A stretch of DNA of 32,657 nt from contig JAAWCO010000079.1 of assembly GCA_022793315.1 (NCBI GenBank), forward strand, positions 1 to 32,657. Reading direction: 5' to 3'. The position numbers and the translations under genes are program-made. The notes under the pieces were generated by a model. It had not been told where the DNA came from. It was given only the letters and a program-made list of their open reading frames with translations, and searched no databases. Below, one piece after another: positions 5,374 to 27,118 of this stretch (positions within the stretch are counted from its first letter, which is position 1; each line of letters begins with the position of its first letter). This stretch comes from Clostridiales bacterium. Lineage in GTDB: Bacteria > Bacillota > Clostridia > Oscillospirales > Acutalibacteraceae.

Positions 5374-5386
5374 GGGGGGTAAGCCG

Positions 5387-6289: not shown

Positions 6290-6308
6290 TAGGGGAGGGG
6301 TGAGTGAA

Positions 6309-7157
6309 ATGAAACTGAGAAAAGAAAGGCGCTCTATTTTCGGCACAGTCTTTTTGGCGCTGCTGTTGATTTTGTTCGCTGTGTTTATGGCGCTTCCGGT
6401 TGTTTACATGCTTTCCTCCTCGCTCAAGCCCCCGGAGGAATTCTTCCTGTTCCCTCCGCCCATTTTCCCCAAATCCCCAACCTTCGACAACTTCAAGGAT
6501 TTGGGATACAGTCTTTCCAATGCCTGGATCCCCTTTGAGCGGTATCTGTTCAACAGTATTCTGCTTTCGGTATCGTCCACTTTATTGTATGTCGCGATTG
6601 CTTCAATGGCGGCATACCCGCTGGCTAAACATCAGTTCCCCGGCAAGGCGGCGATGAATTCCGTGATCACGCTGGCTCTGATGTTTACGGCGGCCGTGCT
6701 GGCGCTGCCCCAGTATATGATCCTTTCTCTGCTGGGCTGGATTGATACCTATCTGGCGATTTTGGCCCCGACGCTGGCGGGAACGATGGGTGTTTTCCTG
6801 TGTGTACAGTTTTTGGAGACCATCCCCAACTCGGTGCTGGAATCCGGTCGTATGGATGGAGCGAGCGAGTTTCGTGTCTGGTGGAGCATTGTGCTTCCCA
6901 ACATTAAGCCGGCCCTGTTCACCATGATCATTTTCCAGTTCCAGGGCGCATGGAATGCTACCGGCGGCGGCCTCATTTATACAGAGGCACTCAAGACACT
7001 GCCTGCGGCTATGACACAGATTGCCTCTGCGGGTATCGCACGTGCAGGTGTCGGCTCGGCTTCCGCCTTTATTTTGATGATTCCGCCGGTGCTGGTCCTT
7101 ATTCTGTCTCAGTCGAACGTATTTGAAACAATGGCTCACTCGGGCATTAAGGATTAA
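6309..7157 (+). CDS. Carbohydrate ABC transporter permease, MalG type (pair 1)
   Basis: A 282-residue permease that should form a heterodimer with the preceding MalF-type protein. ATG 6309 is preferred over the track's GTG 6300: the GTG lies within the ribosome site AGGGGAGGGG, whereas the ATG sits 8 bases behind it. It has TM1 at about 12-35, a periplasmic-side loop with the KPPEEFFLFPP segment usual for MalG proteins, and an EAA loop at about 178-200 (ESGRMDGASEFRVWWSIVLPNIK). The next gene starts only 8 bases after the stop, so translation is probably linked. Confidence 0.92.
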   Translation: MKLRKERRSIFGTVFLALLLILFAVFMALPVVYMLSSSLKPPEEFFLFPPPIFPKSPTFDNFKDLGYSLSNAWIPFERYLFNSILLSVSSTLLYVAIASMAAYPLAKHQFPGKAAMNSVITLALMFTAAVLALPQYMILSLLGWIDTYLAILAPTLAGTMGVFLCVQFLETIPNSVLESGRMDGASEFRVWWSIVLPNIKPALFTMIIFQFQGAWNATGGGLIYTEALKTLPAAMTQIASAGIARAGVGSASAFILMIPPVLVLILSQSNVFETMAHSGIKD

Positions 7158-7165
7158 GGGGTGTT

Positions 7166-9271
7166 ATGGTGAAAAAAGTACTTGCGATAATTACCCTGAC
7201 CATGATCCTGATATCGGCTTTGTGTGTCCCAGCCCTTGCGGAGGGGACCGGCAAGTCCTATGTTTACGATAACATGGGGAATGCTACCGAGATTCCCGAT
7301 CCTTATCGGGTCAGGAATACCATCAGTGATCTGAAGCTCAATTCTCCGGTAGATATGTGCCTGCGCGATGATCTTCTGTACATATTGGATTCCCAGGCTA
7401 TTGAAGGAGAAAAAAACGAGGTCTGTCAGGCCCGCATTGTGGTAGTAGACCGGGATTATCATCTGGTTCGGGAATTCACCTTCCGAAAGGGAGAGGATGC
7501 TTGGAGATTCAAGCGTCCTTCCGGTATCTGGGTAGACAAGGATCTGACTGTCTATATTGCCGACCGTGATGACAATCGGGTGGTTCTGGCGGATATTGAG
7601 GGCAATTATCTGAACGATTTTGGCAAACCTGATTCCGACCTGATGACACAAAGCAGCTCGGAATATTATCCCACGAAAGTGCTGACCGACGATCTGGGTA
7701 TTATCTACATCATGGTAGAAAACGAATACCGCGGCGTCGTGACGCTGAACAGAGACGGCGATTTCATGGGCTACTTCGGCGCCAACAATGTCACCCTCAC
7801 AGGGGACATTCTGACCAATCTGTTCTGGCGTCGCTTCATGACGGAGGCTCAGCTGCAGCGTATGCAGAAAATTCTGCCGACCGAGTATACCAACTTTGCT
7901 ATTGACGATGCCGGCTTTATCTACTGCTCGCGCGGACCGACCGCGGATATGAAGGAAATGATCCGCAAAATCAACTGTAAGAGCAAGAACGTCCTGGCCA
8001 ATACAGACGGCAGTTTTGGAGACAAAGGCCTGTCGCAGGTGCGTGGACTGACCAAAAGGACGCGTTTTTCCGCGATTACGGTGGATGAAAAGGGCTTTAT
8101 CTCCGTGCTGGATTCCACCTGGAACCGCATTTTCCAGTATACTCCCGAAGGCCATCTGATGTTTATCTTTGGCGGTCAGGGCAACCAGGACGGCACCTTC
8201 CAGGCGCCGGCGGATGTGGAGAGCTGGGGAGATGATCTGCTGGTTCTCGACAGCGATTTTGCGACGCTGACGGTGTTTGAACCCACTACCTTTGGCGCCA
8301 ATGTCCGTCAGGGAGAGTATCTCTATACCAAGGGGGAGTACACCGCTTCGCTGGAGCCCTGGGAGGCGGTCAAGACCGAATGCATGAACTACCTGTTTGC
8401 CTATACCGGCATCGGGCAGGCCCAATACATGCAGAAAGACTATAAAAACGCCATGGCCAATTTCAAGCTGGCTGGCGACCAGAGCGGTTATTCCTCCGCC
8501 TTCCAGATGTATCGGGGCGAGGTGACGGGAAAGCTGTTTGTTCCCGTGTTTCTCCTGCTTCTGAGTCTGATTGTGCTGCTTCTGGTGCTCAATATGCTGA
8601 AAAAGAAGGGCATCATCAAGCACAAAAAACTGGTGCTGGATCAATCGGGTAAGTTTAAATACGCCGTTCATACGCTGTTCCATCCGATTGACGGCTATCA
8701 GGAGATGCGCTACAACAGGAAATATTCCATGCCGCTGGCACTGATTTTTGTCTTCCTTTATTTCTTTACCGATGTACTGATTGCACTCAATGCCGGCTTT
8801 ATCTTCAACGGCCTTTCCGCTGCACAGTATAATATTTTTATCACCCTGCTGATGGATGTGGGTGTCATCGCCCTGTTTGCCCTGGCAAACTGGCTGATGT
8901 CCACCTTCTTTGAGGGCAAGGGCCGGCTGAAGGAAGTATGGATTTATCTGTGCTATGCGACCATGCCGATGATTGTTCATAATGTGCTGTACCTCATCCT
9001 GTCGAATGTGCTGACGCAGGAGGAAGGCGTGTTCCTGACCTATATGCGGATTATTTTCCTGGCGTGGATGCTGCTGATGGGCCTGTTTGCCCTGCAGGGT
9101 CTGCACATGTATAATTTCCGCCGGAATATCCTTTCCATCATTTGTACGGTACTGGCCATGCTGGTCGTTCTGTTTATCGTCTTCCTGATGTTCAACCTGT
9201 TTATTCAGTTCTTCTCCTTCCTGGAGACCGTCTTTACCGAAGCGATGTACAGAATTGTCGTCGGATTTTAG
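7166..9271 (+). CDS. Beta-propeller (NHL-like)/YIP1-domain membrane protein
   Basis: A 701-residue protein with a signal peptide (…CVPALA-EGTG). Then come repeated strands of NHL/SMP-30-like beta-propeller character (about 45-375; e.g. RPSGIWVDKDLTVYIADRDDNRVV, FSAITVDEKGFISVLDSTWNRIF), a TPR-like helical stretch (about 390-445), a membrane span (about 454-476) and a C-terminal bundle of about five spans that resembles the YIP1 family. The propeller should face outside, anchored by the membrane domain. From general knowledge, YIP1 proteins next to DUF5696 proteins and sugar permeases recur in Bacillota such as Paenibacillus, but I know of no established function. A sensor or accessory subunit of the transporter is possible. 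The stop TAG overlaps the ribosome site of the next gene. Confidence 0.75.
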   Translation: MVKKVLAIITLTMILISALCVPALAEGTGKSYVYDNMGNATEIPDPYRVRNTISDLKLNSPVDMCLRDDLLYILDSQAIEGEKNEVCQARIVVVDRDYHLVREFTFRKGEDAWRFKRPSGIWVDKDLTVYIADRDDNRVVLADIEGNYLNDFGKPDSDLMTQSSSEYYPTKVLTDDLGIIYIMVENEYRGVVTLNRDGDFMGYFGANNVTLTGDILTNLFWRRFMTEAQLQRMQKILPTEYTNFAIDDAGFIYCSRGPTADMKEMIRKINCKSKNVLANTDGSFGDKGLSQVRGLTKRTRFSAITVDEKGFISVLDSTWNRIFQYTPEGHLMFIFGGQGNQDGTFQAPADVESWGDDLLVLDSDFATLTVFEPTTFGANVRQGEYLYTKGEYTASLEPWEAVKTECMNYLFAYTGIGQAQYMQKDYKNAMANFKLAGDQSGYSSAFQMYRGEVTGKLFVPVFLLLLSLIVLLLVLNMLKKKGIIKHKKLVLDQSGKFKYAVHTLFHPIDGYQEMRYNRKYSMPLALIFVFLYFFTDVLIALNAGFIFNGLSAAQYNIFITLLMDVGVIALFALANWLMSTFFEGKGRLKEVWIYLCYATMPMIVHNVLYLILSNVLTQEEGVFLTYMRIIFLAWMLLMGLFALQGLHMYNFRRNILSIICTVLAMLVVLFIVFLMFNLFIQFFSFLETVFTEAMYRIVVGF

Positions 9272-9282
9272 GAGGAATTACT

Positions 9283-11502
9283 TTGAAAAAGCGTGTTTTT
9301 TCCCTTGTGCTTTCGGTAGTGCTTCTGCTGTCCGTCTTTTCTGTCGCCTATGCTGCGGAGGGCGATCCGATTGCCTCCACCACCACCTCGTGGGGAGAGG
9401 CGGTTCCGGTGGCCGCGGACTTCCAGGAGATTGCCAGCAACAAGAATTTTATCCTTTATTTTCGTTCGTCCGACTGTTATGTGGGCGTGAGGGACAAGAG
9501 AACCGGCGTCATCTGGTATTCCAACCCTCTGGTCGAGGATGACCCGCTGGCCAGCGGCATTTCGGTGACGAATCTCCGTTCCCAGCTGCTGATCACCTAT
9601 ACCAATAAAAATAAAACCAAGGAATCCCAGATCAACAGCGCGGCCGGCTGCGTAAAAGGCGGGTCCGCCAACACGACGCGGGTTAACAACGGTGTCCGGG
9701 TGGATTATGTGTTCGGCAATGAAAAGATCACGATCCCGGTTACCTATGTGTTGGATGAAGAAGGGCTGAATGCCAGCATCCTGACCAATGAGATACAGGA
9801 AGGGAGCAACGAGCTGCTGCGCATTGAGTTCCTCCAGTATTTCGGCGCTGGCTCCGTTGCCGACAACGGGTATATGTTCGTTCCTGACGGCAGTGGTGCG
9901 ATCATCAATTTCAACAATGGCAAAACCAACCGAAATCTGATCTATTCCAAACCCGTATACGGCGAGGACCTCTCCCTGCGCACCAACAACGATCCCATCA
10001 CCTCCCGGTCAGAAAAGATTTCGCTGCCGGTTTTCGGGCTGGTGAACAATGGTGCCGGATTTTTGGCAGAAATCACCAGCGGCGCGGAGCTGGCCTTTAT
10101 CAACGCGGGGGTTGCCGGTACCTCAACCAGCTATAACAATGTGTCCTCTACCGTGACCTACCGTTCCTCTAACAGTCTGCCGCTTCGGGATCAGGTGGAC
10201 TCTACGCAGAACATCATTTATAATGCGCTTCATCCCACGGTGCTTTCCGCTTACTCAGTAAAGTACCGTTTCCTGGATTCGACCCAGGTCACTTACAGCG
10301 ATCTGGCCAATCTGTACCGGGAAACACTGAAGAAGGAGGGCGTCACCAAAACGGCGGATGTGGGCGCACGTCTGTTCACGGAGTTTTACGGCGGTGTCCG
10401 CAAGCAGAAATCCTTTATCGGCTTTGTGTACAACGCTAAAGAGAAGCTCACAACCTTTGAAGAGGCGCAGGAAATTCTGCAGGATCTCAAGGGGAACGGC
10501 GTTGGACAAATCACGGCGCTGTACAACAACTATTCGGATGATTTCTTCAGCCGCAATGTCCAGATTGCCATGAACCCGGCCGGAACGCTGGGCGGAAAAC
10601 GACATTTCAAAAATCTGCTTGACTATGGCGAGCAGGAGGATATCGGCATCTATCCGGCGGTGGATTTTGTCAATGTGCCAACCGGCGGAAATGGGGTGTC
10701 CACCTTCTTTGATGTGGTCAGTGCCCTCAATGTCAGCCCGGTGCTGGTCTATAATTATAAGCTGAACAGCAACATGAAGGACAGCACCACCGCGCCCACC
10801 TATCTGCTGGCCGCCACCAAATACAACAAAGCGGTTGACCGGCTGCTGAACGCTGCGAATAAAAATAACTGTCATGCTCTGTACTTTGATGAAAAGGCGC
10901 AGTACCTCTATTCCGATTTTTCCAAGGCGGGTTATCTGCGCGACCAGACGAAGCAGGAGCTGGTGACACAGTTCCAGCGCCTGAGCGAGGGGAATTCGAT
11001 TACCCTGTCCAATCCCAACAGCTATCTGATGCCGTTTGCCGACTATATTACCGATTTGCCGCTTTCCAGCAGCAGGAACACCCTGTTTGATTACGATATT
11101 CCGTTCCTGCAGATGGTTCTCAAGGGAACCAAGGCGTATTCGGGCAGCAGCGTCAATATCAACGACATGTCACAGGAGGCCTTCCTCCGCCATATCGAAT
11201 ATGGCGCCAATATCAAATACGCTCTGATCAAGTCCGAGACGACCAAACTGCTCGAAACCGATATGACCTTCCTGTATTCCGCGACTTATGATACCTTCAA
11301 GGATCAGATAATGGATCGGTATTCGCAGATGGAAACCATCAGCAGGGAAATTGGGGATGCCTCCATTACCGCCCACCAGACGGACGGTCAGGTTGCAGTG
11401 GTCAGCTATTCCAACGGCAAGACCATCTATGTCAATTACAGCGACAGCAGCGTTGAAATGAATGGGGTATCCATTCCGGCGAACGGCTACGCTGTCCGTT
11501 AA
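9283..11502 (+). CDS. Secreted DUF5696-type protein
   Basis: A 739-residue exported protein starting at TTG 9283, 8 bases after AGGAGGA; the track's 9142 start lies inside the upstream gene. Residues 1-24/25 form a signal peptide ([23 protein letters not shown]). A beta-rich N-terminal half ([35 protein letters not shown]) resembles a sugar-hydrolase beta-sandwich. The C-terminal half alternates strands and helices ([48 protein letters not shown]), as in a TIM barrel. I assign it to DUF5696 from this pattern and from the YIP1-permease context. A glycosidase-like or glycan-binding role is plausible, but I cannot name catalytic residues. Confidence 0.7.
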
Positions 11503-11519
11503 CGAGGGGAGTGAGTGGA

Positions 11520-12458
11520 ATGAAACAAAAAACAAAGGCGCCGGCAGCTGAAGGCGGCGCAGCGCGGCTCCGGCGGCGGCGGCCCATGTCGCTGGAGCGC
11601 AAAGCCAAATGGTCCGGCTACCTCTTTCTTTTGCCCTGGATCATCGGCACCATCTATTTCTTTATCATCCCGTTCTGCAGCTCCGTGCGCTACTCCTTTA
11701 ACAACGTCATGCTGAGCGGAAGCGGTCTGAATTTTAAATTCGTCGGCTTGGAAAACTATCAGTTTATCTTTGGAACCGATGCCGAGTATATGCCCAAAAT
11801 CGTTTCCAGCCTGCGCAGCCTGGTTACCGATGTACCGATTATTGTGGTGTTCTCGCTTTTTGTCGCCATGATGCTCAACCAGAAGTTCCATGGACGTACT
11901 TTTGCCCGTGCCCTGTTCTTTTTGCCGGTGATTATTGCCTCAAGTATGGTGATTAAGATCCTGAATGAAGATGTATTCAAGAACACCATGATGAGCAGCG
12001 GCGAGACCTCCATGTTCCAGACAGGAGCGATACAGACCTTCCTGACGGAAAAGCTGACCCTTCCCGGAGGTCTGGTCAGCACCTTTGCCTCAATCACCAG
12101 TCAGGTGTTCGACCTGTCGTGGAAGTCGGGTCTTCAGATCCTGCTGTTCCTCAGTGCGCTCCAGTCGATTCCGGAGTCCTATTATGAGGTGTGCTCAATT
12201 GAGGGCGCCAATTCCTGGGATGCGTTCTGGAAGGTGACGGTGCCAGTCATCGCCCCCAATATTTTAATTGTTGCGGTGTATACCATCATCGACAGCTTTA
12301 CGGATATGAGCAACCCTGTCATGGCGGATATCCTGGGCCGTTTCAATAATCTGAGATACGGCATTGCAACAGCGGCCGCGTTGATCTATTTCCTTATCAT
12401 CGCTGCGATTCTGGGTGTTCTGGCCCTGATCGTGATGCGGGTTTCCCGGCGCAAATAG
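11520..12458 (+). CDS. Sugar ABC transporter permease, MalF type (pair 2)
   Basis: A 312-residue permease. ATG 11520 is preferred over GTG 11511 because GAGGGGA sits 9 bases upstream of it. A strongly basic N-terminal tail ([16 protein letters not shown]) precedes TM1 (about 32-55). The EAA loop lies at about 223-247 ([25 protein letters not shown]). It is clearly divergent from the first MalF-type gene of the operon, so this is a second transporter type rather than a recent copy. No second solute-binding protein follows. It may use the 942-aa protein, the truncated protein at the left edge, or one encoded elsewhere. Confidence 0.92.
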
Positions 12459-12476
12459 AAAGGAGGAGGCTGTATA

Positions 12477-13505
12477 ATGAAAGAAAATGCACGGACAGCC
12501 GCTCCTGCGGTTCCGGCAGCGCAAAGGGTGACACCCCCGAAAAAGAAGATGACGGCGGATTTACGGATGTATCATATCAAGCGGAAAATTCCTTCGTTTT
12601 TTTACAAGCTGTTCCGCTTCATGTTTATTGTCTGTATGGCCTATGTGCTGTTGTCCCCCATTCTGATCATGCTGAGCCGTTCGCTGCGTACGTCGGCGGA
12701 CATGCTTAATCCCAGTATCGTCTGGATACCCAGCAGCGTCACCTTCAGCAATATTGTTGAGGCCTTCCGCATCATGGATTACGGAAATACGCTGATTTTT
12801 TCCGGACGAGTGGTTTTGATCAGCACCCTGCTGACCCTGGTCTCCTGTTCCATGGCAGGTTATGCTCTGGCGCGGTACCGTCTGAAGATATCAAATTTCT
12901 GCGTGGCGGTGGCGATTTTTACCATTATCGTGCCGATGCAGACCTACATTATCCCCTTTTTCTTCCAGTTCCGTTACTTTAATTTCCTTTTCATCGGCGA
13001 TATTTATAACGCCATCACAGGCGATATCCTTGGACTGAATGACACCGAGTTCGCGTATTATCTGCCGGCGATTCTGGGCGCTGGTCTGCGTTCCGGTCTG
13101 TTCGTCGTGATGTTTACACAGTTCTTCCGGGGCCTTCCCAAGGAGCTGGAGGACGCAGCACGAGTGGACGGCTGTTCCGAGGTGCGTACCTTTGTACAGG
13201 TCATGCTGCCGAACTCCGGCCCGATTTTCCTGGTCATCTCTATTTTCTCCATTGTATGGTACTGGAACGATTATTACTTCGGCCAGATCATGATGAGAAA
13301 CCGGCAGATGATGTCCACTAAAATCAGCATGATTAAGGCGCTGGTGCGCGCCATGAGCGAAACGAATTCCTGGGGCGACGGATATACAGAAACGGTTTGG
13401 GTCTTTGCCTCCGCGCTGCTGTTTATTCTGCCTCCGCTGATCCTTTATATTATCGTGCAGCGCTTCTTTATTCAAAGCATTGAACGTACAGGTATCGTCG
13501 GGTAA
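12477..13505 (+). CDS. Carbohydrate ABC transporter permease, MalG type (pair 2)
   Basis: A 342-residue permease, long for a MalG protein because of a ~45-residue hydrophilic N-terminal extension (ENARTAAPAVPAAQRVTPPKKK…). The first span covers about 45-68, and the EAA loop is at about 218-245 (LEDAARVDGCSEVRTFVQVMLPNSGP). A strong AAGGAGGAGG lies 8 bases before the ATG. An inserted loop (FRYFNFLFIGDIYNAITGDILGLNDTEF) between middle spans is longer than in pair 1. It pairs with the preceding MalF-type gene (18-base gap). Confidence 0.92.
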   Translation: MKENARTAAPAVPAAQRVTPPKKKMTADLRMYHIKRKIPSFFYKLFRFMFIVCMAYVLLSPILIMLSRSLRTSADMLNPSIVWIPSSVTFSNIVEAFRIMDYGNTLIFSGRVVLISTLLTLVSCSMAGYALARYRLKISNFCVAVAIFTIIVPMQTYIIPFFFQFRYFNFLFIGDIYNAITGDILGLNDTEFAYYLPAILGAGLRSGLFVVMFTQFFRGLPKELEDAARVDGCSEVRTFVQVMLPNSGPIFLVISIFSIVWYWNDYYFGQIMMRNRQMMSTKISMIKALVRAMSETNSWGDGYTETVWVFASALLFILPPLILYIIVQRFFIQSIERTGIVG

Positions 13506-13525: not shown

Positions 13526-13552
13526 GAGGACATGGTCACTGGTCGTGTCCTC
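13526..13552 (+). other. Intercistronic hairpin
   Basis: GAGGACA (13526-13532) pairs with TGTCCTC (13546-13552), and about four further inner pairs including wobbles leave a 7-base loop. It lies in the 86-base gap between the last permease and the surface-protein gene and has no T-run. RNA processing, or differential expression of the last gene, is a possible role. Confidence 0.5.
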
Positions 13553-13591
13553 CCTCACCTTCATTTTGATGATAACGGAGGAAACAGGCGC

Positions 13592-14587
13592 ATGAAATAT
13601 GCGAAAAAGGCGCTCGGCGTGCTTCTGACCGTTGCGTTCCTGATGTCCGCTGCGGCGATGACAGCTGCTGCAAAGCCGGACAGCGGTCTGGCGATTATTC
13701 CGCTGGAAGATCATGAGGATGATTTGGATTATTGGGAAACCCAGACGGCGAACGACGAATACGCTCCCCTGAACAGTGAGGGATGCTGGGTAAAAACCAC
13801 TCTGGGCGATGACGGCTCCCTTACACTGGAAAAAACCACAGATTCCAAAAACAATTATCCCCGTATCCGCACCCTGATCCAGGAAGACCTGCCCGAGGTC
13901 GATCTGGAGGCCAATCCCTATCTCTATTTTGATTTTGTCGCTGAGAGCTGCGAGTGGATGATTCAGTTCAATCACGGTCAGAACAGTGTCAAGCTGGCCA
14001 AGGGAATCGTTGGGGCGGTCGGACAGGATGAGCTTGTCGGAGCGGAGGGCCTCCTTTCCATTGATAAGGATGGTCCTGCCGGCCACTATACCGGCAAGCT
14101 GAATCTGGCGCAGTATTACCGCGAGGAAAATATAACAGGTCTGGCCGGGCAGACGAAACTGAATGCCCCTAATGTAGTTGTCTATATCGTCAATCCATCA
14201 GCCGGCGGACGGCTGACCATCAACAGCCTGTCCATCGGTAATGACGATGCGGACCAGGCGTCCGGTCCCAAGCTGAATCTGCTGCTGAAAAACGGCGATT
14301 GGGACGAGGAAGATGAGGAGAATGAAGGGGAAGACGACACCACCGCAGCTGACAGCACGACCACTCGTTCGGCTGCGGAAACCACCTTCTCCCGAACCTC
14401 CGCTGCTTCCACCAATACCGAAACAGACGCATCTGCCGACGGCACCTGGATTTACATCGTAACGGCGGCTGTGGCGGTCGTTGTGGTGGTGGGGGCTGTT
14501 GCCGCTGTCATGGTCATCCGGAAAAGGAAGGGCCGTACGGCGCCGGATCAGGTGTCCGACCCTTCGGATCGGACCGAAAAAAAATAA
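13592..14587 (+). CDS. Membrane-anchored extracellular protein, function unknown
   Basis: A 331-residue protein starting at ATG 13592 behind GGAGG; the track's earlier start (13532) lies within the intercistronic hairpin. It has a signal peptide (…MSAAAMTAAA-KPDS), a predicted beta-sandwich region (about 30-225; SCEWMIQFNHGQNSVKLAKG, GRLTINSLSIGND), a very acidic stretch (DWDEEDEENEGEDD), a Ser/Thr/Ala-rich linker, one C-terminal membrane span (WIYIVTAAVAVVVVVGAVAAVMVI) and a basic cytoplasmic tail. The layout is that of a cell-surface display protein with a flexible stalk. As the last gene of the transporter operon it may bind the glycan outside the cell. I do not recognise a named family. 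Confidence 0.7.
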   Translation: MKYAKKALGVLLTVAFLMSAAAMTAAAKPDSGLAIIPLEDHEDDLDYWETQTANDEYAPLNSEGCWVKTTLGDDGSLTLEKTTDSKNNYPRIRTLIQEDLPEVDLEANPYLYFDFVAESCEWMIQFNHGQNSVKLAKGIVGAVGQDELVGAEGLLSIDKDGPAGHYTGKLNLAQYYREENITGLAGQTKLNAPNVVVYIVNPSAGGRLTINSLSIGNDDADQASGPKLNLLLKNGDWDEEDEENEGEDDTTAADSTTTRSAAETTFSRTSAASTNTETDASADGTWIYIVTAAVAVVVVVGAVAAVMVIRKRKGRTAPDQVSDPSDRTEKK

Positions 14588-17868: not shown

Positions 17869-19647
17869 TTGAAAAAGGCTGTAAAAAAATCGCTGGGCAG
17901 TTCTCTGACGGCTTGTCTGCTGGCCGTCTGCCTGCTGTTCTCCGGCTGTGAGGTATCCGATGCCCCGATAGCTCCGGGAACAGAGGGGGAGAGTACAACC
18001 CCCACGACGTCCGGTGGCGCCGCCACCCCTGACCCGGTACTGTCGCTGGTGGAGGAGCGGTATACCGATGGACTGGGTGAGATCCTTCGGACTGAGCTGT
18101 ATGAAAACGGCAGCCGTGCGGAGCGGGACGAGCTGATCCGTGAGCGCGATAACAAGGTTTTTTATCTGACCGCCGATAAAAAGCGGGTGATCAATTATGC
18201 CGACGGCTATCTGATGGATGTGCCGCTGGATATGGCGCCCGACTATTCTCTCAGTCCCATCCGCTCCCGTTATTCCAATGCCGATACCGTCCTGACCGTT
18301 ACCAAAGAGACCATTCCGGAGGGCTACACCTATGACGCCCTGATGGATGAATGCTACAATTATCTGCTGAAGGACAGCGATTTCATCCGCAGAAACCGCG
18401 TTTCCCGCCAGCCCAGTGAGGAGGCTGCCTATCAGATCAATCGGCTGACGGGAACCGGTCCGCAGACCTATACGGCGGAGTTTTTTACCATGAAGCTTGC
18501 CGGCATGCCGGAGGGGAGCAAGGATCTGTACCAATATGTTCTCCTGACCAATAAAAGCAGCCGGACCTATTATTTCTTCCTGTGCAAATCGAGCGTGGAG
18601 GTCGATATGAAGGAGATTATCGAATCCTTCCAGCTCATCCAGCCGCAGGGAACAGCGGTCTATAATGTTCAATACAACCTGACCGAATCCCCCTCCTGGT
18701 CGGAGGAGACCCGGGCCTACTACCGCCAGCTGAAAGATCAGAAGCATGTGGATTGGGGGCTGTTTTCCGGTCCGACTAACCGGGGAGACCTGTCGGATGT
18801 TCACACCTTTGACCAGCTGGCCGATGTAAAGCTGCCGATTGCCTCTATTTATCGCCATGTCTGGGAGGGCTTTCCCATGGAAGCGGCGAAGGCGGTTGAT
18901 GCCGAGGGACGGATGCTGCAGTTCACCTACCAGTTCACAGACAATAACAATACCGATATCAAGCATTCCCATTCCGAAGCGCTGGAGGTTTATCGCGGCA
19001 AGGACGACAAATACCTGTATGAGCTGGCCCAGGCGCTGAAGGAATACGGCAAGCCGGTGCTGTTCCGCCTGAACAACGAAATGAACACCGACTGGACCTC
19101 CTACAGCGCCTGCGGAACGATGCTGGACCCCGACATTTTTGTGGAAAACTGGATTCGCCTGTACAATATTTTTGAAGAGGTGGGGGTAGACAACGCCATC
19201 TGGATTTTCAATCCCAACGGCGTGGACTGCCCGCAGGCGAAATGGGGTCACTATCTCACCTATATGCCGCCGGCCCAGTATGTACAGATGCTGGGGGTAA
19301 CCGAATATGTTTCAGGGCATTCCGGATACCCCTCCTTTGAGAAGGTTTACAGCGATATGGAGAAGAAATACTCCGGCTTCTTCGGCGACTGGCCGTGGAT
19401 CATTTCCGAGTTCGCCTGCGGTACCGGAAACCTCGACGGGAGAAAGGAGCAGATCCGCTGGGTGGAGGATATGCTGGCGACCATGGCTTCTGGCCGTTTC
19501 CCGCAGATTAAGGCGGCCATCTGGTTCAGCGGCAACGATTACCGGGAGGATGGCTCTATTCAAAACGAATACCAGCTGGATTTCGGCAACAGCGAATTGA
19601 TGCAGGCCTTCCGCGAGGGGTTGGCAGACGTTCTTCCAAAGGGATAA
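17869..19647 (+). CDS. Lipoprotein glycosidase, GH26-like (clan GH-A), paralogue 1
   Basis: A 592-residue protein starting at TTG 17869 behind GAAAGAAGGGAA. Lipobox LLFSGC gives a lipid-anchored Cys27, followed by a low-complexity Thr/Pro/Gly linker. Residues ~55-270 form a domain shared with the two paralogues (NKVFYLTADKKRVINYADGYLMDVP, DYSLSPIRSRYS). The C-terminal barrel (about 270-590) carries KPVLFRLNNEMNTDWTSY with candidate acid/base Glu404 and WPWIISEFACG with candidate nucleophile Glu514, plus NAIWIFNPNG and AAIWFSGND. This order and spacing match GH26 enzymes (mannanases and relatives), though GH26's usual RPxHE is replaced by RLNNE. Acts on the outer face of the membrane. Substrate unknown. 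Confidence 0.72.
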   Translation: MKKAVKKSLGSSLTACLLAVCLLFSGCEVSDAPIAPGTEGESTTPTTSGGAATPDPVLSLVEERYTDGLGEILRTELYENGSRAERDELIRERDNKVFYLTADKKRVINYADGYLMDVPLDMAPDYSLSPIRSRYSNADTVLTVTKETIPEGYTYDALMDECYNYLLKDSDFIRRNRVSRQPSEEAAYQINRLTGTGPQTYTAEFFTMKLAGMPEGSKDLYQYVLLTNKSSRTYYFFLCKSSVEVDMKEIIESFQLIQPQGTAVYNVQYNLTESPSWSEETRAYYRQLKDQKHVDWGLFSGPTNRGDLSDVHTFDQLADVKLPIASIYRHVWEGFPMEAAKAVDAEGRMLQFTYQFTDNNNTDIKHSHSEALEVYRGKDDKYLYELAQALKEYGKPVLFRLNNEMNTDWTSYSACGTMLDPDIFVENWIRLYNIFEEVGVDNAIWIFNPNGVDCPQAKWGHYLTYMPPAQYVQMLGVTEYVSGHSGYPSFEKVYSDMEKKYSGFFGDWPWIISEFACGTGNLDGRKEQIRWVEDMLATMASGRFPQIKAAIWFSGNDYREDGSIQNEYQLDFGNSELMQAFREGLADVLPKG

Positions 19648-19690
19648 AACCATTCGAGAAAATTTTTGTATTTTCTGCTTGCATTTCGGC

Positions 19691-19719
19691 TTGTCAATCG
19701 AATCAGAATGTGCTATAAA
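19691..19719 (+). promoter_or_regulatory. Sigma-A promoter TTGTCA-N17-TATAAA
   Basis: TTGTCA (19691-19696), a 17-base spacer and TATAAA (19714-19719) lie in the gap after the first GH26-like gene. Transcription would start near 19726, just before a strong hairpin, and serve the second GH26-like gene. Confidence 0.7.
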
Positions 19720-19733
19720 GTAAAATCAAAGGC

Positions 19734-19763
19734 CGGTTCTCCCCGTCCAGGCGGGGAGAACCG
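19734..19763 (+). promoter_or_regulatory. Strong 5'-leader hairpin
   Basis: CGGTTCTCCCCG-TCCAGG-CGGGGAGAACCG is a perfect 12-bp stem with a 6-base loop, a few bases downstream of the expected transcription start and about 50 bases before the TTG start. No T-run follows, so it is not a terminator. mRNA 5'-end protection or a protein-binding leader are possible. Confidence 0.6.
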
Positions 19764-19813
19764 TGGACCGAAGCAGGGTGTTCCATGACAGAAAGGGTGA
19801 AGAGGTGGCCATT

Positions 19814-21538
19814 TTGAAGAAATCGGGGCGGAGGAGCCTTTCCGCTGTTCTGGCGGTCTGCCTGCTGTTCAGCTGCACGGCCCTTGCCGGCTGCAACGGG
19901 CAGGAGAAGGGGAAGGAACCCGCCGCCCCCAGCGAGGAGCAGCTGACGGCAGTCCGGGAGAGCCTTCAGACTGCCGGACACATGGAGGGACTGGGCGAGC
20001 TGTCCCAAATGGAGCTCTATGTCAACGGCCAGCGTACGGCCGATACCGAGATGGTTTCCGCCAAGGACAATAAAATCATCTATTATACAGCCGATAAAAA
20101 GCGAATTGTCAATTTCCCCGACGGCTATCTGATGGATCTGGGGCTGGACTGGCAGCCGGACTTTTCGCTGAGCCCGGTCCGCACCCGTTACCTGACCGAT
20201 AACGCTGTTCTTACCATCACCAGGGAAAAGAATACCTATCCGACGATGGAGGAATTTGTCAGCGCCTGTGTCACCCGATATATCAAGGACGACGCCTTTC
20301 TTGCCGCCAACCGTATCCAGCGGATAAAGGAAAACCGCACCATTACGGTGGGGGAATACACCGCCGAGCGAATCGACCTGAAACTGGACGGAATGGAAGA
20401 GGGCGGAATGGCCAACTATTCGTATGCCATTCTGACCCGACCGGACAGCAGCGATTTCTATTTTTTCATGCTGAAATACAATCAGCCGGAGGATCTGGAC
20501 GCTATTCTGGCCACCTTTGAGAAGGTCCGTGTGCAGGGCATCGGCGTCTACAGCAAGACCTTCGAGCTCAGGGAGCCTGAGAACTGGAGCGCCGACACCA
20601 AAGCCTATTATGAAAAGCTGAAAAACCAGAAGCATATTGACTGGGGTATTTTCAGCGCCAACCTGGCCAAGGTGGGGATGAAGAGCGATGTTCCTGCCCT
20701 GGAAAAGCGTATGGATTACAAATTTCCGATCATCTCCGAATATATCCATTATTCCAAAAACAAATTCCCCACTGAGCTGACTCAAATCCTCGATAAAGAG
20801 GGCCGTCAGCTCCAGCTGACCTATCAGTTCACCTCCTCCAATAATACCGAACTGGCGGGATATACGCCCTCTCTTGATATCTATCGCGGCCGTTGCGACG
20901 AGGAGCTTCGTGCCTTTGCCAGGGAAGTGAAAGCCTATGGCAAGCCGGTGCTGTTCCGCCTGAACAATGAGATGAACACCGACTGGACCAGCTACTGCGG
21001 TCTGACCAATATGGTGGATCCGGATATTTTTGTGGCGTCCTGGGTGCGGATGTATAAGCTCTTTGAAGAAGAGGGCGTCAACAATACCATTTGGATTTTT
21101 AACCCGTTTGACGGCAGCTATCCTCCCTGCAACTGGGCTAATTTCATCAATTATATGCCCGATTCGGAATATGTCCAGATGATTGGACTGACCGGCTATG
21201 AGTCGAATAATAAAAATACAAACCAATCCTACCAGGTCATTTATGATAAGATTGTTCAAAACTATGAACCCTTCTTTATGGACTGGCCGTGGATTATTTC
21301 CGAGTTTGCCTGTGGCTCCGGCGCCAATAAAGAAAATCAGGAATCCCAGGCGAAATGGGTGGAGGAGATGTTCGACTGTTTTGAGCAGGGACGATACCCG
21401 AATATCAAGGTGGCCGTCTGGTTTAACGGCAATGACTACACCGATGAAGGACAGGTAAAAAACCGCTATGCTTTGAGCGTGACCAACAAGAGTACAATGA
21501 AAGCCTTTAAGGACGGCCTGGCGGCCACACAGCCGTAG
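19814..21538 (+). CDS. Lipoprotein glycosidase, GH26-like, paralogue 2
   Basis: The TTG at 19814 is preferred (8 bases behind GAAGAGG); the track's GTG at 19763 overlaps the leader hairpin, and GTG 19805 overlaps the ribosome site. This gives 574 residues with an ideal lipobox LAGC, Cys27. The domain order is that of paralogue 1: shared N-terminal domain (NKIIYYTADKKRIVNFPDGYLMDLG) and C-terminal barrel with KPVLFRLNNEMNTDWTSY (Glu386) and WPWIISEFACGSG (Glu497). The Glu-to-Glu spacing of 111 residues matches the other two copies (110). Distinct features are AKVGMKSDVPALEKRMDYKFPIISEYIHYSKNKFP and NPFDGSYPPCNWANFINYMP. It has its own promoter, so it may be expressed separately from paralogue 1. 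Confidence 0.72.
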   Translation: MKKSGRRSLSAVLAVCLLFSCTALAGCNGQEKGKEPAAPSEEQLTAVRESLQTAGHMEGLGELSQMELYVNGQRTADTEMVSAKDNKIIYYTADKKRIVNFPDGYLMDLGLDWQPDFSLSPVRTRYLTDNAVLTITREKNTYPTMEEFVSACVTRYIKDDAFLAANRIQRIKENRTITVGEYTAERIDLKLDGMEEGGMANYSYAILTRPDSSDFYFFMLKYNQPEDLDAILATFEKVRVQGIGVYSKTFELREPENWSADTKAYYEKLKNQKHIDWGIFSANLAKVGMKSDVPALEKRMDYKFPIISEYIHYSKNKFPTELTQILDKEGRQLQLTYQFTSSNNTELAGYTPSLDIYRGRCDEELRAFAREVKAYGKPVLFRLNNEMNTDWTSYCGLTNMVDPDIFVASWVRMYKLFEEEGVNNTIWIFNPFDGSYPPCNWANFINYMPDSEYVQMIGLTGYESNNKNTNQSYQVIYDKIVQNYEPFFMDWPWIISEFACGSGANKENQESQAKWVEEMFDCFEQGRYPNIKVAVWFNGNDYTDEGQVKNRYALSVTNKSTMKAFKDGLAATQP

Positions 21539-21593
21539 GCTGTTTACGGACCGTTCCCGAAGGATCAATCAGTGTGCCAATCACAGGACTGCG

Positions 21594-21632
21594 AACCCGC
21601 GGCAGACGGCGTTCCCATCTGCCGCGGGTTTT
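21594..21632 (+). terminator. Terminator-like hairpin between paralogues 2 and 3
   Basis: AACCCGCGGCAGA (21594-21606) pairs perfectly over 13 bp with TCTGCCGCGGGTT (21618-21630). An 11-base loop separates them, and TTGATCTTGT follows. The T-run is short, so read-through into the next gene is likely; only about 20 bases remain before its start codon and no promoter is visible there. Confidence 0.65.
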
Positions 21633-21652
21633 GATCTTGTAAAGGAGGAATC

Positions 21653-23260
21653 ATGATGAACGAAGAAATTCTGCAGGGATTTCCCCCTCCCGAAAAAGAG
21701 GAATGGTATGAGGACGGACGCCTGCGTTCATCCTCTCCGAAGGAAGGGGAATGGGCTCCGGAAAAGGACAACAAGCTGATTTACACGGCAGGGGATCGCC
21801 AGCGTGTGGTAAATTTTCCTGACGGATATTTGCTGGATGTCCCCGCCGGCTGGCGGCCGGATTTCACCCTCAGCCCGGTGAGGGTCCGATATCGGGCGGA
21901 GGGGCTTGTTCTGACCGTCACCAGGGAAAAAATGATTTACGACACCCATCAATTCTTTTTTGACGAATGCTTCAACCGCCACATCAAGGACCCGCAGTAT
22001 CGGAAGGAGAACCAGATTACCGAAGTGCGGCCCTGTCATGTGGAGGAGCTGGACGGGTATCGGGCGGAGTTCATTCATCTGCATCTGGAGGGAATGCCGG
22101 AGGGGAGCCTGACCTATTATACCTTTGTCAAGCTCTACAACGAATCCCCCGACTTTTTCCACTTTTTGCTCAAGACGGCGGAATCCTTTGATCTGGAGCC
22201 GGTCGTCCGTTCGCTGAGGGAGATTCCCGCCAGCGGCACCGCGGTGTACAGCGCCGAATTCCAGCCCCATGTGTCGGAGGACTGGACCCCGGAGACACGT
22301 GCCTATTATGAAAAGCTGAAAAATGCCGATACCATCCAGTGGGGATTGTTTACCAGCCATGGGAACAGCGGCCAGCTCGACCAGCTTGAGGAGCTGGAGG
22401 AAAAGATGGACTATCGCTTCCCCATTGTTTCGATTTACCGCCATGTGGTGCATGGTTTCCCGACCGAGGCGGTGCAGCGGGTGGCCGACGCCGGCCGGCA
22501 GCTTCAGTTCACCTATCAGTACACAGGCACCAATAACACCGACCTTTCCTCCGGATCGGCGGCGCTGGAGGTTTACCGCGGCAAATGGGATGACCGCCTG
22601 CGCGAAATTGCCAGAGGCATCCGCGATTACGGCAAGCCGGTGCTTTTCCGCCTGAACAACGAGATGAACACCGACTGGACCAGCTACAGCGGTCTGGTGT
22701 GTCTGCTGGACCCGGATATTTTTATTGAGACCTGGATCCGCTTTTACAACATCTTTGAAGAGGAGGGTGTACATAACGCCATCTGGATCTGCAATCCGTT
22801 TGACAAGAGCTTCCCTCCCTGCCGCTGGGCCAGCTTCATCAACTACATGCCGCCGGCCGAGTATATGCACCTGATCGGCGTCACCGGCTATTGCAGAGGA
22901 CATAACGGATTCCCCAGCTTCCGGAAGATTTATCAGAAGATCGAGGATGACTATCGTCCCTTTTTCATGGACTGGCCGTGGATTATTTCCGAGTTTGGCT
23001 GCGCCAGCGGGGATGGCACCCAGCTGGACGAGCAGGAGGAATGGCTGCGGGGCATGTTCGATTGCTATGAGCAGGGGCTGTTCTCCAACATCAAGGCCGC
23101 TGTCTGGTTCAGCGCCGACGACCTGAACCCGGATGGCTCGATACTCAACTGGTACCTGCTGCATCCGGAGCAGGATCAGATCATGGGGGCGTTCCGCGAC
23201 GGCTTTAAGAGGACTCATGCAGAGGCGGCCTGCCCGCCCGGTGAGGGGGCGTCTGTATGA
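21653..23260 (+). CDS. GH26-like glycosidase, paralogue 3, without export signal
   Basis: A 535-residue protein behind an excellent AAAGGAGG. Unlike paralogues 1 and 2 it starts directly with a hydrophilic sequence (MMNEEILQGFPPPEKEEWYEDG…) and has no signal peptide, lipobox or membrane span, so it should stay in the cytoplasm. The rest aligns throughout: NKLIYTAGDRQRVVNFPDGYLLDVP, then KPVLFRLNNEMNTDWTSY (Glu337) and WPWIISEFGCASGDG (Glu447), 110 residues apart. FGCAS is closer to the SEFG usually seen at GH nucleophiles than the FACG of its siblings. The stop overlaps the next start (ATGA), so the following lipoprotein is translationally coupled. An intracellular finishing role on imported oligosaccharides is inferred. 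Confidence 0.72.
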   Translation: MMNEEILQGFPPPEKEEWYEDGRLRSSSPKEGEWAPEKDNKLIYTAGDRQRVVNFPDGYLLDVPAGWRPDFTLSPVRVRYRAEGLVLTVTREKMIYDTHQFFFDECFNRHIKDPQYRKENQITEVRPCHVEELDGYRAEFIHLHLEGMPEGSLTYYTFVKLYNESPDFFHFLLKTAESFDLEPVVRSLREIPASGTAVYSAEFQPHVSEDWTPETRAYYEKLKNADTIQWGLFTSHGNSGQLDQLEELEEKMDYRFPIVSIYRHVVHGFPTEAVQRVADAGRQLQFTYQYTGTNNTDLSSGSAALEVYRGKWDDRLREIARGIRDYGKPVLFRLNNEMNTDWTSYSGLVCLLDPDIFIETWIRFYNIFEEEGVHNAIWICNPFDKSFPPCRWASFINYMPPAEYMHLIGVTGYCRGHNGFPSFRKIYQKIEDDYRPFFMDWPWIISEFGCASGDGTQLDEQEEWLRGMFDCYEQGLFSNIKAAVWFSADDLNPDGSILNWYLLHPEQDQIMGAFRDGFKRTHAEAACPPGEGASV

Positions 23261-25104
23261 AAAAGGCTTTTTGTGCGGCGGCAGCGCTGATAACGGCGGC
23301 TGTGATGTCTGTTTCGCTGACAGGCTGCGGGAAAGCCTTTGATACCAAAAGGGAGGGGATTCCCCGGATAGACCTCCGCGCCAATATCGAGGATGTCAGC
23401 GCGGATAATGCTGAACGGGACTACCGCTTTACCGCTGGTGAAACGGATGAGTATACCTTCAGCGCTGAGGGCACAGCCCAAATTCAATTGTTCGATGGGG
23501 AGGGGAAACAGCTGGCCGGCGGTCAGGACGATGTTTCTGCGCCCTTGACAGAAGGAAAGGAGTATTTTATGAAAATCACTACCGAAGAAAAAAACACCCC
23601 GTTTGCCGTGAGAATTTCCGCCAACGGAGATGGGGGCCGAAGCAATCCCTACATGCCGTTTGAGAACATCTTCACCCAGCAGGAGGTCCAGGTGGAGAAA
23701 ACGGAAGAGGATCCGCTGAAGCCCTGCACGGTCGAGTATAAGAAACGCGAGGGCGGCACCTACATCTATTCCAACAACCCGGAAATGATGGCGCCCGAGG
23801 ATCTGGGAGCCGCCATTATCCGCACCGAGCACATGAGCGGTATGTACAACTTTACCTATGAGCATTCCAACCATACCGGCCACAACATTTTCCTGGGATA
23901 TCAGCTGCTCAACACCAGCGAAACAGAGGACGCGGTGGTGACGGTGTACAACATCGGCTTCCAGGTGGACGGCGAGTGGCTGGGTCAGCGCTCCTGGTCG
24001 GATTTCTACAATCTGCGGTTTGAGCTGCCGAGCGACTATTTTGATGAGGAAGGGAAGGAAACCTGGTATTATAAGGGGCAGGATTTCCTGGATTACACTC
24101 CCCGCGTGTTTGAACCCACCACCTACCGGATTCCCGCCGGTCAGTATATTTACGTGCTTGGCGGCACCTCTGCGGACGCTTATAATCACACCAATGTGGC
24201 CGGCACCGCCGACAAACAGATTCTGAAGGGCCGCTGCTCTAACGCCGCTGTGCAGTTCAGCGTCACCGGCGGCGATGTGACCGGTACCTTCTATCCCTAC
24301 AACGATCCCGCTCAGGTGCAGGCGAACCCGCCGGAGCAGGGCCATATAGATGAGCGGGACGGCAAGGACTACGGCGGACAGTATAAGGGAACTGACCCCC
24401 ATCTTGGTCTGATTGAAGCCAACCTTTGCTGGACGGTCAATGATAAAACCCCCGCGGGCAGGCTGCCGGTAACTTATGAGGTGATGTATGATCCGAATGC
24501 TTCGAGCGTCACCACCCCCTTTGCAGAATACCACAGCGTTCCCCACACCATCAACGCGGATAACTGGCAGACCAGCCTGAACCCGCAGAACTCCCACCGC
24601 TCGATTGGCACCGATATGATGGTATTCAATGGCATCGACCCTCAGGGCAACCCCATCATTATCGACAATGAGCACGCCGACGGACGGGGACAGATCGCGA
24701 ACACGGGCAACTGGATGGTGACCTACAACGACAACATTACCCTGGTCAACACCGGCGACAAGCCCCGTACCTTCCGGGTGTATAAGTCCGGATCGGCCTC
24801 CGGCGCGCTGATGTCCTGTGTGCGCGACCGGGAGGGTAAGGTGCTCAACGCACTGATGAATATCCGGCCGCTTCTGCACAACGGCGACAAGCTGCCGGAT
24901 GGCGTGGATGCCAGCCGATATGTGAAAAAAGGCGGTACCTTCTGGCCCATCATCGACGGCGTTTCCTTTGACCAGCTGATAGACGACTATTCGCTGGTAT
25001 GTACGGTGACGGTGGAGCCCATGTCCTATACACAGTTCACAGTGGATTATCTGATCCTGGGGAATTCCTGCGGAGGCATCAACCACTGGATCACGGTCGA
25101 TTGA
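23257..25104 (+). CDS. Surface lipoprotein with PPC-like N-terminal domain, function unknown
   Basis: A 615-residue protein with signal peptide and lipobox VSLTGC (Cys24). Residues ~45-125 (GETDEYTFSAEGTAQIQLFDGEGKQLAGGQ…LTEGKEYFMKI) resemble the bacterial pre-peptidase C-terminal beta-sandwich. The remaining ~480 residues are beta-rich with many aromatic and Asn residues (MYNFTYEHSNHTGHNIFLGYQLLNT, GFQVDGEWLGQRSWSDFYNLRF, PAGQYIYVLGGTSADAYNHTN) and recall large extracellular glycan-binding folds. I do not recognise a catalytic motif or a named family for this part. It starts in a 4-base ATGA overlap with paralogue 3, so the two are produced together even though one is predicted outside and the other inside the cell. 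Confidence 0.65.
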   Translation: MKKAFCAAAALITAAVMSVSLTGCGKAFDTKREGIPRIDLRANIEDVSADNAERDYRFTAGETDEYTFSAEGTAQIQLFDGEGKQLAGGQDDVSAPLTEGKEYFMKITTEEKNTPFAVRISANGDGGRSNPYMPFENIFTQQEVQVEKTEEDPLKPCTVEYKKREGGTYIYSNNPEMMAPEDLGAAIIRTEHMSGMYNFTYEHSNHTGHNIFLGYQLLNTSETEDAVVTVYNIGFQVDGEWLGQRSWSDFYNLRFELPSDYFDEEGKETWYYKGQDFLDYTPRVFEPTTYRIPAGQYIYVLGGTSADAYNHTNVAGTADKQILKGRCSNAAVQFSVTGGDVTGTFYPYNDPAQVQANPPEQGHIDERDGKDYGGQYKGTDPHLGLIEANLCWTVNDKTPAGRLPVTYEVMYDPNASSVTTPFAEYHSVPHTINADNWQTSLNPQNSHRSIGTDMMVFNGIDPQGNPIIIDNEHADGRGQIANTGNWMVTYNDNITLVNTGDKPRTFRVYKSGSASGALMSCVRDREGKVLNALMNIRPLLHNGDKLPDGVDASRYVKKGGTFWPIIDGVSFDQLIDDYSLVCTVTVEPMSYTQFTVDYLILGNSCGGINHWITVD

Positions 25105-25228: not shown

Positions 25229-27118
25229 ATGCCCATGAAAATCAACCTGATCACAGAGGAGGCTTCTCTGCTGAAGGGAGCCGCGGCGCTGGCCGGTCAT
25301 GATATCCTGCTGACCGGTGCGGAGGAGGCCGACCTTCAGGTGACGGCGGAAGGGTGCAGCGAAGGACTCTGCGTAGAAATGGCGGGCGGCAAAGCCCGGA
25401 TCGGCTATTCCCGGCGGGTGGAATTTTTCCGCGGGCTTTCTCTGCTGCTGGAGGCTTTTGGCGAAGGACAGACCGAATGGAAAACAGAGGAACGGCCGCT
25501 GTTCCCCACCAATGGCTATATGATGGACTGTTCCCGCAATGCTGTGCCCACTGTTGCTGCCATTCAGGAAATGATCGTGATGCTGGCACTGATGGGACTG
25601 GATACCCTGCAGCTGTATACCGAAGACCTGTATGAGCTGGAGGGAGAACCGTATTTCGGCTATATGCGCGGCCGCTATACGGAAGCGGAGCTGAAGGAGA
25701 TCGACGATTTTGCCGACGCGCTGGGCGTGGAGGTGGTCCCCTGTATTCAGACGCTGGCCCATCTGGCCACCGCGATGCGCTGGCCCTGCTATGACCGTCT
25801 CAAGGACTGCGCCGATATCCTGATGGCCGGCGAGGAGGAAACCTATGCGCTGGTGGAAAAGATGATCGCCCACATGTCCCGGTGCCTGCGCAGCCGTCGG
25901 ATCAATATCGGGATGGATGAGGCGCATCTGATCGGCCTGGGGCGCTACCGCGAGAAGCACGGCATCCGACCCCGTGCGCAGATCATGCTGGAGCATGTCA
26001 TCCGCGTTAATGAGATCTGTCGGAAATACGGCCTGAAGCCCATGATGTGGAGCGATATGTTTTTCCATCTGGCGGCGGGCGGCTATTCCGGCGAGGAGGG
26101 GATCATTCCGCCGGAGGTCATCGAGCAGGTGCCGCCGGAGGTGACGCTGGTGTACTGGGAGTATTACAACGCCGACCCCGAAAATTACCGACGGGTGCTG
26201 CACAACCATCAGCAGTTCCGCAATCCGGTGGGCTTTGCCGGCGCCGCGTGGAAGTGGAACGGCATGCTGCCCGAGCTGGCCTACAGCCTGAAGGTGACCC
26301 GTATCGCGCTGGCGGAATGCGCGCGGGCGGGGCTGCGCGAGGTGATGGCCACCGGCTGGGGCGACAATGGGGCCGAATGCCCGCTGTTTGCCGTCCTGCC
26401 CGCCCTTCAGCTCTATGCCGAGTACAGCTATCAGGGCGGCGATGTCAGCGACGAGCGGCTGGCCAGCCGGCTGCTGGCCTGCACCGGCGGCATCTGGCAG
26501 GATTTCCTCCTTCTCGACAGGCCGAACCGCACCACGGAAAACCAGCCGGCTCCCGGCCTCAACCCCTCCAAGTACCTGCTGTATCAGGATGTGCTGATGG
26601 GACTGTTTGACCGGCATGCGGATGAATCCTTCCCGCCCTTTTTTGCGGCCTGCGGCCGGGAACTGGAGGCGGCGGGCGAGCGCAATCCCCGCTATCGCCG
26701 GATGTTCACCTATGCCGCAGAGCTCAGCCGGGTGCTGGAGCTGAAGGCAACGCTGGGCATCGAGCTGGCCGCCGCCTATCGAGCGGGGGACCGGGCCGCT
26801 CTGGAGACGCTGGCCGACCGGCGTCTGCCCGCCCTGCTGGAGCAGATCGACCGGTTTTCCGAAGCGTTTTACGATTCCTGGATGGGGGAGAACAAGCCGT
26901 TTGGCTATGAGGTGACCGATATCCGGCTCGGCGGCCTGCGGAAGAGAGCTGTCACGGCGCGCCGCCGCCTTCGGGATTATCTGGAGGGCCGGCTGGAACG
27001 GCTGGAGGAGCTGGAGCAGGAGCGCCTGCCCTTCGACGACAGAGGGGACGAACCGCGCGATATCAATACCTTCTGCAACAACTGGGGACAGATTGTAACC
27101 GCCTCGGTGTTGAACTGA
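25229..27118 (+). CDS. Cytoplasmic GH20 beta-N-acetylhexosaminidase, GH20C-like
   Basis: A 629-residue protein without signal peptide. After a small N-terminal alpha/beta domain (about 1-85) comes the GH20 barrel: RPLFPTNGYMMDCSRNAVP, LMGLDTLQLYTEDLYEL, VEVVPCIQTLAHL, then the catalytic pair Asp230-Glu231 in NIGMDEAHLIGLGRY, followed by KPMMWSDMFF. Family knowledge: GH20 uses the substrate's N-acetyl group as nucleophile, with Asp-Glu as assisting residue and acid/base. Length and the GMDEAH context match pneumococcal GH20C, an intracellular exo-enzyme acting on terminal GlcNAc/GalNAc. ATG 25229 lies 10 bases after AAAAGGAG. It implies that HexNAc-containing oligosaccharides enter the cell. 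No promoter was seen between the upstream terminator and this start. Confidence 0.88.
   Translation: MPMKINLITEEASLLKGAAALAGHDILLTGAEEADLQVTAEGCSEGLCVEMAGGKARIGYSRRVEFFRGLSLLLEAFGEGQTEWKTEERPLFPTNGYMMDCSRNAVPTVAAIQEMIVMLALMGLDTLQLYTEDLYELEGEPYFGYMRGRYTEAELKEIDDFADALGVEVVPCIQTLAHLATAMRWPCYDRLKDCADILMAGEEETYALVEKMIAHMSRCLRSRRINIGMDEAHLIGLGRYREKHGIRPRAQIMLEHVIRVNEICRKYGLKPMMWSDMFFHLAAGGYSGEEGIIPPEVIEQVPPEVTLVYWEYYNADPENYRRVLHNHQQFRNPVGFAGAAWKWNGMLPELAYSLKVTRIALAECARAGLREVMATGWGDNGAECPLFAVLPALQLYAEYSYQGGDVSDERLASRLLACTGGIWQDFLLLDRPNRTTENQPAPGLNPSKYLLYQDVLMGLFDRHADESFPPFFAACGRELEAAGERNPRYRRMFTYAAELSRVLELKATLGIELAAAYRAGDRAALETLADRRLPALLEQIDRFSEAFYDSWMGENKPFGYEVTDIRLGGLRKRAVTARRRLRDYLEGRLERLEELEQERLPFDDRGDEPRDINTFCNNWGQIVTASVLN

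Follow-up and report, generated by a model that had tools for sequence, protein, structure and literature searches.

The His-Glu (HE) motif is described as conserved in the mannanase branches of GH26, and a xylanase branch of the same family is reported to lack the conserved His (PMC6556568). Published work describes two GH26 branches without HE. Many GH26 beta-1,3-xylanases carry CBM31 or CBM6 modules (PMC9638140). Bacteroides ovatus uses two GH26 enzymes that are placed in separate compartments (PMC6556568). An analogous arrangement in GH10 comes from Caldicellulosiruptor kronotskyensis: of the pair Xyn10A/Xyn10B, one enzyme is predicted to be extracellular and the other intracellular, and their catalytic domains are 41% similar (PMC4761950). 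The locus examined in this study encodes two GH26-type lipoproteins followed by a third paralogue without an export signal. It lies in a stretch of 32,657 nucleotides (the window), within contig C125 of a 1.81 Mb MAG of a Clostridiales bacterium from the gut. This genome is 78% complete, so the pathway may have further components that the assembly lacks.

Three tandem GH26-type genes and their active site

A preliminary description of this DNA had proposed three tandem GH26-like paralogues that share an N-terminal domain and a barrel. The open reading frames (Table 1), together with Pfam and fold matches, bear this out. The three copies are 45–48% identical to one another (45–46% for copies 2 and 3 against copy 1, over the alignment), and a fourth copy is found on another contig of the same genome, C109. 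Every copy in the window combines an unannotated N-terminal domain with a GH26 barrel. A Pfam search and a PDB profile search with the N-terminal domain returned no family and no match. Its order of strands and helices in the model resembles that of PsbP/Mog1-like domains, which is only an impression. As described beforehand, RLNNEMNTDWTSY and WPWIISEF are common to all three copies, and the two glutamates are 110 residues apart in copy 1 (E404/E514) and copy 3 (E337/E447) and 111 residues apart in copy 2.

Table 1. Features of the window, in order of position
Feature	Position	Strand	Basis
Extracellular sugar-binding protein of an ABC importer	2545..5373	+	PF01547, E = 1.5e-19
ABC permeases 1 and 2	5246..7157	+	PF00528
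DUF5696 protein	9142..11502	+	PF18952, 531.7 bits
ABC permeases 3 and 4	11511..13505	+	PF00528, E = 1e-4 (below cut-off) and 9e-13
Surface protein, beta-sandwich with C-terminal membrane anchor	13532..14587	+	AF2 pLDDT >90 over much of 28–217; best folds CBM28 and other CBMs, weak
GH26 copy 1, lipoprotein, 592 aa	17869..19647	+	PF02156, 32 bits; signal with ..LLFSGC; exported orthologues in G053 and G172
GH26 copy 2, lipoprotein	19763..21538	+	591 aa from GTG 19763; PF02156, 32.9 bits; lipobox LAGC; CtLic26A, E = 3e-14
Strong GC-rich hairpin between copies 2 and 3, followed by TTTTGATCTT	21594..21631	+	RNA fold
Ribosome-binding site of copy 3, AAAGGAGG, strong	21641..21648	+	sequence
GH26 copy 3, leaderless, predicted cytoplasmic, 535 aa	21653..23260	+	no leader in any frame; AF2 model; orthologues; dN/dS
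Putative catalytic acid/base Glu337 codon of copy 3 (RLNNE)	22661..22663	+	aligns with Glu of RPLHE in CtLic26A; position computed from ORF
Putative nucleophile Glu447 codon of copy 3 (ISEF)	22991..22993	+	aligns with IAEF in CtLic26A; position computed from ORF
Lipoprotein, no Pfam match	23257..25104	+	start overlaps copy 3 stop by ATGA; follows copy 3 in G053 (80%) and G172 (68%)
GH20C beta-hexosaminidase, no signal peptide	25229..27118	+	PF18088, 207 bits; PF00728, 37 bits; N-terminus MPMKINLITEEASLL

The preliminary description had allowed that a profile search might place these proteins in a non-catalytic or unrelated barrel family. The family recovered is PF02156 (GH26): copies 1 and 2 score above the gathering cut-off of 20.2 bits, copy 3 falls just below it (18 bits), and its orthologue in the sister species G053 lies above (28.8 bits). 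These matches are partial and cover about 118–245 of the 311 profile positions. An ordinary GH26 protein from the same bacterial family reaches 188 bits across almost the full length of the profile, as compared to about 33 bits over the central part for the proteins studied here, which marks them as a divergent branch. The AF2 model of copy 3 contains a (beta/alpha)8 barrel, and almost all of its best PDB fold matches are GH26 enzymes. A viral fold search returned mainly generic barrel glycosidases.

An alignment of 70 relatives revealed eight invariant residues (R333, N336, E337, W342, W378, Y413, E447 and W485 in copy 3 numbering). The R-x-N-N-E motif and the second Glu are retained in all 70, and R333, E337 and E447 correspond to the conserved Arg, acid/base and nucleophile of GH26. 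E337 and E447 align with the catalytic Glu pair of the lichenase CtLic26A. The HE motif reads NE (Asn336) in 70/70 sequences, a count that is partly built into the sample because NNEMNTD was one of the two patterns used in the collection scan. The His that precedes the acid/base in mannanase branches A and B is therefore absent from these proteins. From these sequence comparisons the copies look like a divergent GH26 branch with no characterised member, and a search of the literature returned no assayed member. The earlier suggestion of a separate subfamily is thus likely to hold, given the weak, partial Pfam match and the proteins' own N-terminal domain. The accompanying idea that RLNNE signals a different substrate does not follow from the motif, since other GH26 branches already lack HE.

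Copy 3 and its leaderless relatives

Copies 1 and 2 begin with an n-region and a hydrophobic core followed by a Cys (..LLFSGC-E and ..TALAGC-N), which agrees with their initial assignment as lipoproteins. The lipobox of copy 1, FSGC, is less canonical at position −3; the orthologues of copy 1 contain LSGC, and copy 2 contains LAGC. Copy 2 probably starts at TTG 19814 rather than at GTG 19763. Orthologues of copy 2 are also exported, and G053 has two of them.

The reading frame of copy 3 is closed upstream by an in-frame TGA (21632–21634). The start codon, ATG 21653, is located four bases past AAAGGAGG and seven codons past the first base of this TGA, and a second ATG follows at 21656. The three forward frames upstream of copy 3 contain no hydrophobic leader, signal peptide or lipobox. 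A missed start with a signal peptide, which the preliminary description had named as one observation that would undo its proposal, was therefore looked for in three frames and not found. A frame-shifted signal peptide was rejected on the same grounds, and because the two orthologues described next also contain none.

The two sister species of the same genus that we compared, G053 and G172, both encode leaderless orthologues of copy 3 (72.5% identity, locus L111, and 57%, locus L112, respectively). On a single contig of G172 the order GH26-1, GH26-2, GH26-3, lipoprotein, GH20C, DUF188 is kept. In G053 this order is split across two contigs. An 18-base palindrome just before copy 3 ends one of these contigs and begins the other, which fits adjacency without proving it. 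Orthologues of GH20C follow copy 3 in both species (81% in G053 and 72% in G172). Comparison of copy 3 with the G053 orthologue gave dN = 0.188 and dS = 1.317; the ratio of about 0.14 is rough because dS is near saturation, and lies within the range seen for copies 1 and 2. By this estimate the copy 3 lineage is under purifying selection. For copy 3, AF2 gave a complete and confident model (pLDDT 93.9, pTM 0.92), which indicates that the fold stayed whole when the leader was lost.

The collection scan identified relatives at 76 loci, mostly in MAGs of Bacillota, many of them from animal guts. Within the order, the branch is present in 13 of the 169 sampled genera, again mostly gut MAGs. In a tree of 101 proteins the copy 3 clade forms a single group (support 99), and the starred branches force at least five separate changes to account for the leaderless members; this is a quick tree, and its support values should be read with care. 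The view that copy 3 lacks a signal and should be cytoplasmic thus gains support from the leaderless orthologues in two more species and from these independent changes elsewhere in the family. Nine members are counted as leaderless, each after inspection of its start codon and of out-of-frame leaders. L018_267 and L038_599 were left out of this set; the start at L038 is ambiguous. At about 9100–9300 of L018, a signal-bearing ORF just upstream of the GH26 relative and in the same frame is broken by a single in-frame TAG, which may represent either a sequencing error or a recent break. The loci from an order-wide search provided no clear new full-length leaderless member.

An exported paralogue adjoins the leaderless one in the clade of the window and at L115, L035, L060 and L072. 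At L115 (contig C65 of G172), for example, a leaderless GH26 gene (9699–11255) is followed by an exported one and then by GH13. The leaderless genes at L055 and L051 have no adjacent exported paralogue. Leaderless members contain more cysteine than the others (1.82% vs 1.25%, p = 0.02, uncorrected for kinship). This difference would be expected of cytoplasmic proteins and lends weak support to that location.

Gene neighbourhood and a candidate pathway

The protein encoded at 13532–14587 has no Pfam match above cut-off. Its domain is fused N-terminally to GH26 relatives at L012–L018, at least one of which also carries a dockerin. This fusion makes it probable that the product is a carbohydrate-binding partner. 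Members of the same family also adjoin GH26 paralogues at L116 (4310–7431) and L118, often in alternation. Two tandem FAD_oxidored paralogues (14787–16166 and 16309–17700) precede copy 1 in the window, and the compared stretches of G053 and G172 contain one each. A literature search found no papers on DUF5696, nor on DUF4127 together with glycoside hydrolases.

A consensus scan called no plus-strand terminator at the hairpin between copies 2 and 3. Hairpins of unlike sequence occupy this position in all three species (21594–21631 in the window, the start of L111 in G053 and 10256–10372 of L112 in G172), and other hairpins precede copies 1 and 2 in the window. Expression control is a possible role for these elements. 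The ATGA overlap between copy 3 and the downstream lipoprotein gene suggests coupled translation. Relatives of this lipoprotein also adjoin GH26 genes in distant loci, and at L035 two copies follow.

A second type of locus surrounds GH26 relatives at L053, L056, L058, L062, L065, L069, L075, L076, L078 and L079. It contains a GDPD phosphodiesterase, DUF4127, GH31, a Big_2 lipoprotein and ABC importer genes in varied combinations; GH20C is present at L062 and L076. Such loci could point to a glycan that bears glycerol phosphate.

We consider it probable that the locus encodes serial cleavage of one glycan. The three paralogues, each with an extra N-terminal alpha/beta domain, would act as retaining beta-glycanases. 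Anchored as lipoproteins to the outside of the membrane, copies 1 and 2 would cut a polysaccharide or glycan to oligosaccharides, which the ABC importers of the locus would bring into the cell. Copy 3 would cut the imported oligosaccharides again in the cytoplasm, and the leaderless GH20C would remove HexNAc residues. The recurrence of an outside-plus-inside pair in related bacteria suggests that the same sugar chain is cut outside and again after import. Enzyme activity, the cytoplasmic location of copy 3 and the order of steps are inferred, and a shared substrate of the three copies is assumed.

Copy 3 may instead be cytoplasmic and act on a different glycan, either imported or made internally, so that the copies divide their tasks rather than work in series. 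An identity of only 45–48% among the copies would be compatible with such a split, and the hairpin between copies 2 and 3 would permit separate expression. We regard this explanation as unlikely, because in related species copy 3 is found together with the lipoprotein copies and the importer genes and because the active-site residues are identical among the copies. Less likely still is that copy 3 reaches the outside by lysis or non-classical export and works there with copies 1 and 2. Its acidity indeed equals that of the exported members (net charge −26 vs a mean of −26), but the leaderless GH20C nearby and the higher cysteine content speak for an intracellular setting.

Similarly improbable, to an even greater degree, is the idea that copy 3 is decaying or truncated, an old lipoprotein gene left after chance loss of the 5′ end. 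The absence of the leader and linker seen in copies 1 and 2 could be read in this way. Conservation of the leaderless form in two other species at low dN/dS is the very observation that refutes such decay, and excluded a pseudogene as a candidate; copy 3 also has its own ribosome-binding site and stop context, the full catalytic set and a well-folded model. The weak and partial Pfam match might further suggest barrels that bind sugars without catalysis or that come from an unrelated barrel family. We give this hardly any credence, since neither the catalytic Glu pair nor the Arg of the −1 subsite varies across 70 sequences and GH26 enzymes make up nearly all of the best fold matches.

The pointers to the substrate diverge: the nearest solved enzyme is a lichenase, loss of HE is common to non-mannanase branches, and GH20C beside the GH26 set hints at HexNAc in the substrate. 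A broader proposal, which joins a separate GH26 subfamily (Asn-Glu for His-Glu and its own N-terminal domain), a HexNAc-containing glycan, at least five losses of export and action of one family on both membrane faces, is tentative and rather doubtful as a whole.

Comparison with known systems

Among solved structures, the closest relative is CtLic26A, the GH26 lichenase of Clostridium thermocellum (PDB 2bv9, 2cip). It is the best sequence match (E = 2e-24 with the family profile) and the best fold match (TM 0.86 on target), with 18% identity in the structural alignment. CtLic26A has RPLHE where the present family has RLNNE, and its solved domain lacks the N-terminal alpha/beta domain. The GH26 beta-1,3-xylanases share the fold and match more weakly than the lichenase (2ddx, TM 0.66 on target; AlXyn26A, 7xjr, E = 1.5e-4); the N-terminal domain is also absent from those with CBM31 or CBM6. 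The GH26 beta-mannanases (CjMan26A, BoMan26A/B and Bacillus subtilis Man26) again have the GH26 fold (TM about 0.6 on target), but contain the HE motif, unlike the copies described here.

This comparison marks out a sizeable GH26 branch, found in 13/169 sampled genera of the order. The repeated, independent conversion of exported into leaderless enzymes beside exported paralogues amounts to a natural experiment. Such pairs allow one to ask directly how an enzyme that cuts polysaccharides changes once it works inside the cell on oligosaccharides.

A limited literature search found no report of a cytoplasmic GH26 enzyme paired with exported paralogues. The inner GH26 enzyme of B. ovatus is periplasmic, whereas copy 3 is predicted to be cytoplasmic. 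Xyn10A and Xyn10B resemble the present copies in that a single family has members inside and outside, but they belong to GH10 rather than GH26, and the portion of the source considered here describes no tandem lipoproteins with a leaderless copy (PMC4761950). Inside/outside pairs within a single glycoside hydrolase family are thus already known, and the locus described here is a GH26 version of this arrangement, one that is found repeatedly.
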